Positions 4,389 to 18,655 of a stretch of 22,391 nucleotides of DNA are shown piece by piece. Position numbers and translations under genes: made by a program. Source of the DNA: a virus; IMG/VR virus record IMGVR_UViG_3300035698_008901, positions 1 through 22,391 of that record; one strand, 5' to 3'. Each line of letters begins with the position of its first letter. The first letter of the stretch is position 1. The notes under the pieces were generated by a model. The model did not search any database. It saw only the letters and a program-made list of their open reading frames with translations, and was not told where the DNA came from.

Positions 4389-4600
4389 AAGCATTTAAAG
4401 TGTGAGCCGCCTAGGTCTCCAGTTATTCCCCCACTCGGGAGACTCCACGCTACACATCCGTTTGACATTCATAACTACATTAAGGTAATTACTCCTATCA
4501 TAGGATATGTTTCATCGCTAGTCAGGCGAATCATCAGACGTGTAGTGGGGCTAGATGCTCCTGTGTCAACGGCTCTGAGGAGCCCACGCTTTAAATGCTT
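4389..4600 (-). ncRNA. Candidate structured RNA, about 212 nt, closed by a perfect 12-bp terminal stem
   Basis: The ends AAGCATTTAAAG (4389-4400) and CTTTAAATGCTT (4589-4600) are perfect inverted repeats. The interior is visibly GC-richer than the AT-rich surroundings and holds no convincing gene. Internal pairings: 4564-4572 with 4458-4467 (nine pairs, one bulge); 4540-4548 with 4445-4455 (nine pairs, 2-nt bulge); and a hairpin 4415-4420 with 4438-4443. The first two pairings interleave and would form a pseudoknot. The strand is chosen from the neighbouring genes and could be the opposite. I tested tRNA, hammerhead and group I intron patterns by eye and none fits. Confidence 0.6.
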
Positions 4601-16031: not shown

Positions 16032-16206
16032 AGTTTGAGACATATTACGTAGACCAAAAGTAGACCTAAGTAAAGTAGTCACAGATGAGCGTATTACAAT
16101 AACAGATGAACTACTTATAGAGTTTGCCGAGAATAATATATCAAAGTTTCATGAATTTTTAGAAGTTAAACGAGATGAGAAACATGGCTGAGGGGTTTGA
16201 GTTTAA
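16024..16206 (+). CDS. Small protein, 60 aa, overlapping both neighbours
   Basis: Begins MIKVGDILRRPKVDLSK and is charged and helical (DELLIEFAENNISKFHEFLEV); the last residues HGGGVGV come from TGA codons within the overlap with TerL. It overlaps the 77-aa gene by 8 nt and TerL by 23 nt. These overlaps suggest coupled translation. No family recognised. Confidence 0.45.
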
Positions 16207-18655
16207 GTTCAATGCATCTGAGAAACAAGCCTTAGCACTGGAGTATCTTACAGACGATATTACCAGAGAGCTTGGGTATGGTGGTTGAGCTGGATGAGGT
16301 AAATCTTATATAGGGGTCACACGGCTCTGGATGATGGCACACAAATATCCTGGGACCAGATGGTTCATCGGACGTAAAGAGTTATCCAATCTTGTAAAAA
16401 CGACACTAAATACATATTACAAGTTTGGGCAAGATTACAAGATACCAATGCACCTTATGGGTAAGCTCGATAAAAAGTATAACATTATAAAGTTTTTAAA
16501 CGGGAGCGAGATACTGTTATTGGATTGTGCGACACAGCCAGCTGACCCATTATTTACAAGATTTGGTTCTCTTGAGTTGACTGGATGATTTATAGATGAG
16601 TCGAATGAAATCGACGAACAAGCTATTACTATCCTCAAGACAAGAATATCAAGACAGAAGAATAAGGAGTATTGATTGATACCTAAGCTATTAGAAACCT
16701 TTAATCCTGACCAAGGACACGTTAAAAGGAGGTTCTGGACCCCATACAAGAAGGGGGTGCTACCTAAGACTAGGCAGTTTATACCAGCCCTGGCTACCGA
16801 TAATAAATATATTGACCCTGAATATATAGTGCAGCTACAGAATAGTGATGAGATTACTAGACAGAGACTTTTGTTTGGAAACTTCGAATGGAGTACCAAT
16901 GAAGGTAAATTGTTCAGATATGACGAGATTAACGATTTGTTCACAACTAATGTGGATGAGAAACTTAATGTTATGTTCCTTACTTGTGATGTTGCCAGAT
17001 TAGGTAACGATAAGACAGTAATCTGAGTACGAAGATGATATGAATGTATCAAGATTATAACTTATGCACAGAATACTATAGACGAAGTAGCTACAAGGAT
17101 TAAAGACCTAGAAGAAGAATATTCTATCAGCCGTAGTAATATATGTATAGATTCTGATGGGGTATGATGTATGGTTGAATGAACACAAGTGTTTACACTA
17201 GATTGACGAAAAAATATCGAAGATTTAACACTATGACAGCATATTTATTCAAAAACTATGGATGGTAAGGTTTCTACTGAAGTAGTTATGGATATTGAGA
17301 TACACGAAAACACTAGGACAATAAAGTCTTCTAATTGATATGAGTTTAGTCAATGACATTTTTTGCCAATACAGTCAAGAAAAGAACATCCAGTAAAGTT
17401 ACATAGTCGAGATTGGGTAATGAAACCATGAAAAACTAAGAGAGGTAAACAATATTTTTTACAAAATGATTTTAATTGGGAGGGTTTTGATTATATTTAT
17501 AGGTCTGATAATACATTGCGTGCTATGCCTAATTGATGAATAAATAAGTTTAAAAATTGAAGGACTATAGAATGATATAAATTAGCTAGATTATTGTGAC
17601 GGTTTGTATCCGAATGATATTTTGATTGAAGATACTTTTGTCTTTGCCAGTCAAAGAAAAGTCCCCATATAGCCGATATAGAAAAATCAATTAGTGATTG
17701 CTGATTGTCTATTGTTAGGTCTGAAAGCAAAGCTGGCGAGTGTTTTTGGAAGATAGGGAATAAGCCCATATTAGAGTTTCTAAAAAAAGAATGTTATATC
17801 GCTGGATGAGACTGAGAGCATAGAAGTTATAATAAAAAAGTTCCAAACTTTATTAAGAAGTGAAACAAAAAAATTATCAATAATTTCTTAGAGACATATA
17901 ATTATTGAGACTGATATATCCATAAATGAACTGGTAAGATGTATTACTCAACAGCTAGTAAAATATTAGCAGAAGATATATTAGAGCTTATATACAAGAA
18001 AGGTTGATATTGAAATATAATACTTCACGCAAAGAAATGAAGTAAAAGTGAAATATTTGGTAGAAAAATCACTAGGGGACATGATGTACGATGTATATAT
18101 GAATATAAAAACCCCTCTATATGTATTACACCTAATGTTGTTGAAGATAAACTAAGTACAGTATATGACCTTAGGATTTCTTGAGAATCTAAGTTATTTA
18201 TGTGTAGATTTAGTGATTGAAGATGATTCTGGTCACATAATGGTTGAGTCGCTGATTTGTTAAGAGGATGTGTAAACTTTGTTAATAACCAATCACCATT
18301 CAAATTCGAGATAGAGAAAAAATGATTCGTAGTTAGGAATTTTGCGAACCTGAAAGCTCAGTGCTATTTTCAGCTAAAGGAGATGATGGAGCGTAGGAAA
18401 TTGAGAGTGTATGCTGATTGAGAAATCAGAGACCATCTTAGTGCCGAGCTAGAGAATATATATCTGAAAGATTATGACACCGACGGGAAGATTAGGATAG
18501 AATGAAAAGATGACCTAAGGAAAAGGTTGAACAGGTCTTCTGATTTCGCTGATATGCTTATGTTTAGGATGATTTGGGTTATCAAGAAAACCGAATCAGA
18601 GAATAGTTGAGATGAATGAGTATACGAAACAGAATGGGATGAGTTATTATACTAG
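16184..18655 (+). CDS. terL: Terminase large subunit carrying an intein, 823 aa precursor
   Basis: The ATPase part has Walker A YGGGAGGGKS (TGA on two of the Gly) and a Walker B-like LTGGFIDESNEIDEQA segment. The nuclease part has the first Asp at CDVARLGND, the second at CIDSDGVG, and the last at SSDFADM. It pumps DNA into the capsid and cuts concatemers. Residues 329-686 are an intein placed right after DSDGVG; removing them gives GGVADLLRGC and a 465-aa protein of normal TerL size. About 13 of 36 extein glycines are TGA. The following hairpin ends the packaging operon. Splicing is not shown. Confidence 0.9.
17168..18241 (+). mobile_element. LAGLIDADG intein in TerL, 358 aa, Gly at +1
   Basis: Starts C329 with CMVEGTQVFTLDGRKNIEDL (intein block A). 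A block B-like part has GHFLPI (H392) with Ser rather than Thr before it. Two LAGLIDADG elements follow: LLGRFVSEGYFDG (470-482, acidic E477) and FLETYNYGDGY (568-578, acidic D576). Block F is VYDLRI (660-665), but the usual block F His is not seen. The C-terminal dipeptide H685-N686 is present. The next residue is Gly, not Cys/Ser/Thr. About 26 of 36 glycines are TGA, versus about 13 of 36 in the extein, which suggests a different origin. Homing endonuclease function and splicing are inferred from family. Confidence 0.8.

Follow-up and report, generated by a model that had tools for sequence, protein, structure and literature searches.

What is encoded at positions 4389 to 4600 of the window, by which is meant the entire 22,391-base virus record analyzed here (IMG/VR record IMGVR_UViG_3300035698_008901)? 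The region forms the gap separating a gene for an 81-residue protein from a ParB-like gene (a match to PHROG 12305 with an E value of 1.7e-31), and all of the surrounding genes lie on the minus strand. An earlier note, made from the letters alone, had described a geneless, GC-rich interval bounded by perfect 12-bp inverted repeats, and had proposed that it specifies a pseudoknotted RNA, possibly a leader of the ParB-like gene. The description of the interval is accurate. Its GC content is 0.472, whereas the 300 nt on either side have values of 0.300 and 0.327, and the repeats are perfect. The record is read with genetic code 25, in which TGA specifies glycine, and only under this code do the DnaB-like helicase and the terminase appear as long frames. 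This code usage points to a probable host among Gracilibacteria- or Absconditabacteria-like bacteria. No known coding sequence is present in the region under code 25, and the sole frame running across it is a 97-residue open reading frame on the plus strand, antisense to the RNA described below. Neither a tRNA nor a tmRNA was found in the 22,391-base record with ARAGORN, and neither a promoter nor a terminator for the element itself was significant. A LAGLIDADG domain occupies residues 569-639 of the terminase large subunit frame (16175-18655, plus strand, 826 residues), and intein-containing models align at about residues 468-636; from these sequence matches the frame probably carries an intein.

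A sensitive blastn search with positions 4389-4600 served as the starting point. It returned short matches in Microcystis, Enterobacter, Arthrobacter, Pectobacterium, and Dickeya phages, all in non-coding or hypothetical stretches, and a side-by-side reading of these revealed one common RNA that corresponds to the minus strand of the window, from 4600 to 4389. The family was then collected with a pattern of 19 letters taken from the 3' part of the RNA, which occurs in at least 119 viral contigs. A narrower pattern occurs in 22 viral contigs, nine of which were already in the larger set, and from this overlap roughly 300 exact-match contigs are estimated to exist among 2.9 million. The named carriers are Microcystis, Arthrobacter, Mycobacterium, Enterobacter, and Pectobacterium phages; in Mycobacterium phages Gaia and phiGD24-3 the RNA immediately follows a tRNA-Ser gene. 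Thirteen contigs from bacterial or archaeal genomes also contain the 19-letter pattern, including those of Pseudomonas, Burkholderia, and Asticcacaulis, along with MAGs labelled Clostridia, Patescibacteria, Gemmatimonadales, and archaeon, which may be misplaced phage. The RNA is present in 15 of 5,426 E. coli genomes, and in the one that was opened, strain A35, it is positioned between the genes for an antitermination protein and a holin in a lambdoid prophage. The plasmids searched gave no match to the pattern, and each locus gave a single match with no tandem copies seen. In Arthrobacter phage Constance (L004), the RNA is overlapped by annotated gene 68, for a hypothetical protein, which is probably not a true gene.

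A covariance model was built from 46 members with the window element left out, and it aligns to that element at 4401-4588 of the minus strand with a score of 97.5 bits and an E value of 2.3e-26. Judged by sequence comparison, the element belongs to a family of phage noncoding RNAs common to very different bacterial viruses. No Rfam 15 family reached its gathering score for the window or, tRNAs aside, for 20 homolog loci, and no description of this RNA was found in an open-access library of papers. By these two measures the phage RNA class is apparently undescribed, its hammerhead part being of a known kind.

The features of the element are listed in Table 1. The core is best described, from the covariation presented below, as two hairpins, Pa and Pb, the loops of which form the long-range helices Pc and Px, with P1 often closing the ends. 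When members are parsed by landmarks, the 5' half runs in the order CGUGG, Pa 5' strand, a loop with the Pc 5' strand, Pa 3' strand, AUCUnG, Px 5' strand, and a hinge. There follow CGY, GGA, the Pb 5' strand, a loop with the Px 3' strand, GAAUAACU, the Pb 3' strand, a C, a short linker, and the Pc 3' strand. Note that CGUGG was outside the search pattern, yet served as a parsing landmark.

Table 1 Features of the RNA element in the window. Positions are those of the 22,391-base record.
Feature	Positions	Strand	Basis
Entire element of 212 nt, with P1 as the closing stem	4389-4600	-	match of a covariance model that excluded the window
P1 5' strand, pairs with 4389-4400	4589-4600	-	perfect 12 bp
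P1 3' strand	4389-4400	-	perfect 12 bp
CGUGG, conserved, 5' end of core	4584-4588	-	CGTGG in 94 of 95 distinct homologs, CGCGG in 1
Pa 5' strand GCUCCU	4578-4583	-	covariation
Pa 3' strand AGGAGC	4557-4562	-	covariation
Pc 5' strand GAGCCG, in Pa loop	4570-4575	-	at least 5 bp with 3' tail, 101/101
Pc 3' strand CGGCUC	4404-4409	-	at least 5 bp, 101/101 homologs
Linker AUCUAG, conserved	4551-4556	-	last base changes together with that at 4437; not significant alone
Px pseudoknot 5' strand CCCCACU	4544-4550	-	covariation
Px pseudoknot 3' strand AGUGGGG	4429-4435	-	covariation; compensatory changes in L158, L160
Pb 5' strand GUCUCC	4438-4443	-	covariation
Pb 3' strand GGAGAC	4415-4420	-	covariation
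GAAUAACU, conserved, Pb loop	4421-4428	-	identical in all members, mostly pattern-fixed
Type-I hammerhead, predicted cut between 4451 and 4450	4447-4541	-	83/106 homologs
Hammerhead stem I	4538-4541/4447-4450	-	sequence
Hammerhead core CUGAUGA	4531-4537	-	sequence
Hammerhead stem-loop II, U10.1-U11.1 mismatch, loop CUGACUA	4514-4530	-	sequence
Hammerhead GAAA ending in A15.1	4510-4513	-	sequence
Hammerhead stem III, lengthened by one more helix and an AGUA/GAA loop-E-like motif	4452-4510	-	sequence, relatives

Covariation was measured with the G statistic and average-product correction for 2,080 column pairs in 95 distinct members. For the null, 60 alignments were simulated along a FastTree tree using the substitutions observed, in an implementation of our own modelled on R-scape. 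The 12 top-ranked of the 2,080 pairs are exactly the 12 variable pairs of Pa, Pb, and Px, each with an expected chance count of 0.00 to 0.12; the Pa result leans somewhat on its own complementarity, which helped the parser to place segment A, whereas the positions of Pb and Px came from fixed offsets alone. The homologs thereby bear out the earlier proposal of a structured, pseudoknotted RNA, and Pb is the 6-bp hairpin that had been recognized in the single sequence. Ranks 13 and 14 connect the linker with the start of the Pb loop, where G-C is replaced by U-A in six members (the last base of the linker changes from G to U together with C to A at 4437); these are not significant alone. The pairing of Pc in every member compares with about 51 when the tails are shuffled among members.

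The invariance of GGAG, GGGGAAUAACU, and CC is in part a product of selection by the search, since the pattern fixes those columns. In L158 and L160, which were found by a hammerhead pattern without GGGG, the GGGG varies and the changes in Px are compensatory, and GAAUAACU is retained despite the different search pattern. GGGGAAUAACU and CCUAGGC may resemble segments of 16S rRNA. Among 90 standard-form homologs, 54 have a P1 of 6 bp or more, versus 28% for shuffled partners. The 12-bp repeat alone is unexceptional; six within 250 nt occur in the AT-rich window, as compared with 1.5 expected from mononucleotide shuffles.

The minus strand folds with an energy of -75.2 kcal/mol (z of -4.4 versus shuffles), and the plus strand folds nearly equally well (z of -3.9). 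Folding of both strands, which the earlier note had recommended, supports structure in this way but does not give the strand, because both strands surpass their shuffles; the strand is provided by the homologs. The unconstrained minimum-energy fold contains hammerhead stems II and III, Pb, and P1. Imposing the nested conserved helices costs 7 kcal/mol, with the two pseudoknots not yet counted.

The hinge between Px and Pb is where a second domain is located. The earlier note had reported that the region did not match the hammerhead pattern, but a type-I hammerhead with an intact core is present there on the minus strand. The motif was masked by its U10.1-U11.1 mismatch and by the extension of stem III. 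Its three stems contain 4, 4, and 8 bp, and the cut is predicted to fall between A4451 and G4450. A hammerhead occupies the same hinge in 83 of the 106 members, namely 68 of 91 in the standard form and all 15 in the permuted form described below, whereas the same filter passes 1 of 21,200 shuffled hinges; these counts come from a parser able to handle CUGANGAA. All 83 contain GAAA, A15.1-U16.1, and C, A, or U as H17. The CUGANGA core is seen in 81, the other two being a U3-A8 variant and one with an insertion after A6, both of which are known among natural hammerheads (PMC3088659). UUGANAA in place of CUGANGA (U3-A8 for C3-G8) was observed in L143, L073 (Mycobacterium phage Gaia), and L022; this covariation has been reported as rare in natural hammerheads (PMC3088659).

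The pair at 10.1-11.1 is G-C in 44 of the 83 members, and the window, with U-U, departs from the usual G-C criterion. Other combinations are found in 39 (A-A in 22, U-U in 13, C-A in three, and G-U in one), and these may slow the hammerheads that contain them. The U10.1-U11.1 mismatch occurs in natural hammerheads, where it allows more activity than other mismatches (PMC3088659). The Rfam Hammerhead_1 model gives L003 and L016 28.7 bits versus a gathering cut-off of 34 (E value of 0.0048), and there is no Rfam hammerhead match for the window. The U-U mismatch and the extended stem III probably keep the window hammerhead below the Rfam models.

In the remaining 23 members no hammerhead satisfies the filter, and the hinge is mostly 18-40 nt in length. 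Among these 23, the motifs of L022, L037, and L129 look like hammerheads that have diverged or partly decayed. That the motif is mostly either intact or wholly absent suggests that cutting is selected where the hammerhead is present, as an accessory to the core. Cutting cannot be essential to the core, given the members without a filter-passing hammerhead and their mostly short hinges. Several stem II loops recur, namely GAAA (14 members), UGAAAU (10), CUGACUA (six), and UGAGAU (five). The AGUA/GAA extension of stem III and the CUGACUA loop occur together in L110, L116, L127, L129, L139, and L160, and a related stem III extension is seen in L132, L138, and L158.

These assignments alter the view of the two long-range helices that the earlier note had drawn, 4564-4572 with 4458-4467 and 4540-4548 with 4445-4455. 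The complementarity exists as letters, but the pairing is not conserved. Upon inspection of relatives, 4458-4467 is seen to pair locally within stem III, with compensatory changes, and the helix of 4540-4548 with 4445-4455 would form at the expense of hammerhead stems I and III. In the subfamily with the AGUA/GAA extension, the 5' side of stem I can pair with the GUGUA that precedes the cut (4540-4550 with 4445-4456). This alternative pairing would exclude the hammerhead fold, and it is possible that it forms an on-off switch.

Fifteen of the 106 members are circularly permuted, including the E. coli, Enterobacter, and Pectobacterium type. In these the Pb half precedes the Pa half, a hairpin joins the two where the standard form ends, and the hammerhead is positioned at the 5' end. 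The predicted cut occurs at the same place of the fold in both the standard and the permuted genes.

With respect to genomic neighborhood, 31 of the 106 members have a tRNA gene no farther than 300 nt away, on the same strand in every case, as compared with 9.6% at random places, and a 27-tRNA array has L013 at its end. A terminator-like hairpin is found within 110 nt downstream of 12 of 104 members versus 1.6%. A weak signal is provided by -10-like boxes, which lie upstream of 17 of 90 standard members versus 9%; five of the 17 are at an identical distance. The RNA is variously next to tRNAs or to genes for terminase, holin, or capsid proteins, and no family of neighboring proteins recurs in more than 10 of 100 locus groups. 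The broadest, in 10 of the 100, is terminase-like and lies at a median distance of 2.3 kb. The largest cluster of neighboring proteins proved to be an artefact, the antisense frame of the RNA itself.

Taken as a whole, the sequence comparisons make it likely that the element is an autonomous phage noncoding RNA that would nick itself via the hammerhead and act in trans. A trans-acting RNA is favored over a leader because of the conserved core, the varied neighbors, the standalone terminators, and the tRNA islands; we infer the trans role from the absence of a common neighbor. In the window, the hammerhead would cut the RNA once, after 4451, yielding pieces of 150 and 62 nt that would stay joined via P1, Pc, and Px. 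This single nick would mature or switch the RNA, and the nicked form would then act in trans inside the infected cell. Our guess is that its target would be a universal component of translation or tRNA metabolism rather than the adjacent gene, given the tRNA islands, the lack of a common protein partner, and the same core across phyla. The link to translation is weak, since most members are not beside a tRNA. A bolder and somewhat unlikely reading is that phages of many phyla use the core as a catalytic or ligand-sensing domain of an undescribed kind, which controls or cooperates with the hinge hammerhead in a natural two-domain ribozyme.

The position of the element, 10 nt past the 81-residue gene and 31 nt ahead of the ParB-like gene on their strand, invites another explanation, namely that the hammerhead cuts the operon transcript between these genes and sets mRNA ends or stability. 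Hammerheads flanking genes of bacteria and prophages are known (PMC3088659). Such a role is nonetheless unlikely. The neighbors vary among phages, and many copies are found by themselves, followed by a terminator of their own, or within groups of tRNAs. A ribozyme that only had to cut would not need the conserved core, and 23 members have no recognizable hammerhead. From the leader proposal of the earlier note, the location upstream of the ParB-like gene stands, but a gene-specific leader or riboswitch is unlikely because the downstream gene is not conserved and the homologs have other neighbors.

A natural allosteric hammerhead, with the core as the sensor and the hammerhead as the output, would fit the fusion of stem I to the core, and the recurrent stem II loops suggest docking onto it. 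The whole core is kept in members without a hammerhead, however, and there is no shared downstream gene to control, so we consider this arrangement quite unlikely. Very unlikely is a core that functions as a ribozyme or ribozyme-like domain for the trimming of tRNA ends, as in phage theta ribozymes, with the hammerhead as a second cutter. The CGUGG does begin a few nucleotides from the 3' end of a tRNA in L103, L115, L120, and L144, and the topology of Pa and Pc is crossed like that of P1 and P2 in HDV-like ribozymes. An HDV-like fold, which is a nested double pseudoknot with a P3 hairpin and a catalytic C in J4/2, was rejected, however, as inspection revealed no P3 hairpin between Pc and Pa and there was no Rfam HDV match even at an E value of 0.5; moreover, the P1 stems of many members extend upstream of CGUGG, which speaks against a cut at that point, and most members lack a tRNA. 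Finally, it is extremely improbable that the hammerhead ends, a 2',3'-cyclic phosphate and a 5'-OH, are rejoined in a small circular RNA of which the permuted genes are a reflection, for although hammerheads can ligate, the single hammerhead in each RNA cannot free a monomer circle from a linear gene, and each locus holds one copy.

This densely conserved RNA class spans phages of cyanobacteria, actinobacteria, and proteobacteria, with firmicutes and Patescibacteria-like hosts judged from metagenome-derived contigs, and the E. coli prophages among its carriers make laboratory study feasible. It provides a definite and testable setting for the old question of the purpose of hammerheads in bacteria and phages. 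It also offers natural cases of a ribozyme that is present at, or missing from, one site of another RNA and of the circular permutation of a conserved RNA.

Several known systems resemble parts of this RNA. Like the type I hammerhead of Rfam (RF00163), the hinge domain has CUGANGA, GAAA, A15.1-U16.1, H17, and three stems with stem I open; unlike it, the domain sits inside a larger conserved pseudoknotted RNA, scores below the cut-off, and is often mispaired at 10.1-11.1. Natural hammerheads in intergenic regions of phages PaP3 and Bcep176 (PMC3088659) share the location, and the core is absent from PaP3 and from Bcep176 up to its last 856 bases. ROOL and GOLLD are likewise phage noncoding RNAs of complex structure that are often near tRNA islands (PMC12286853), but they are far larger and differ in sequence and structure, and their Rfam models gave no gathering-score match to the window or to the 20 loci. 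The theta ribozymes are HDV-like, self-cleaving RNAs at the 3' ends of phage tRNAs (PMC10879173). The present RNA is similarly found in phages, can be adjacent to tRNAs, and is predicted from its sequence to cleave itself, but it contains a hammerhead and a different core without the P3 hairpin rather than an HDV fold. Closest to the permutation observed here are the non-circularly permuted hammerheads HRIMA-1 and type SGC (PMC10085705), in that both involve permutation within a hammerhead RNA; in those systems, however, it is the hammerhead that is rearranged, whereas here the core is permuted and the hammerhead retains the classic type-I order.
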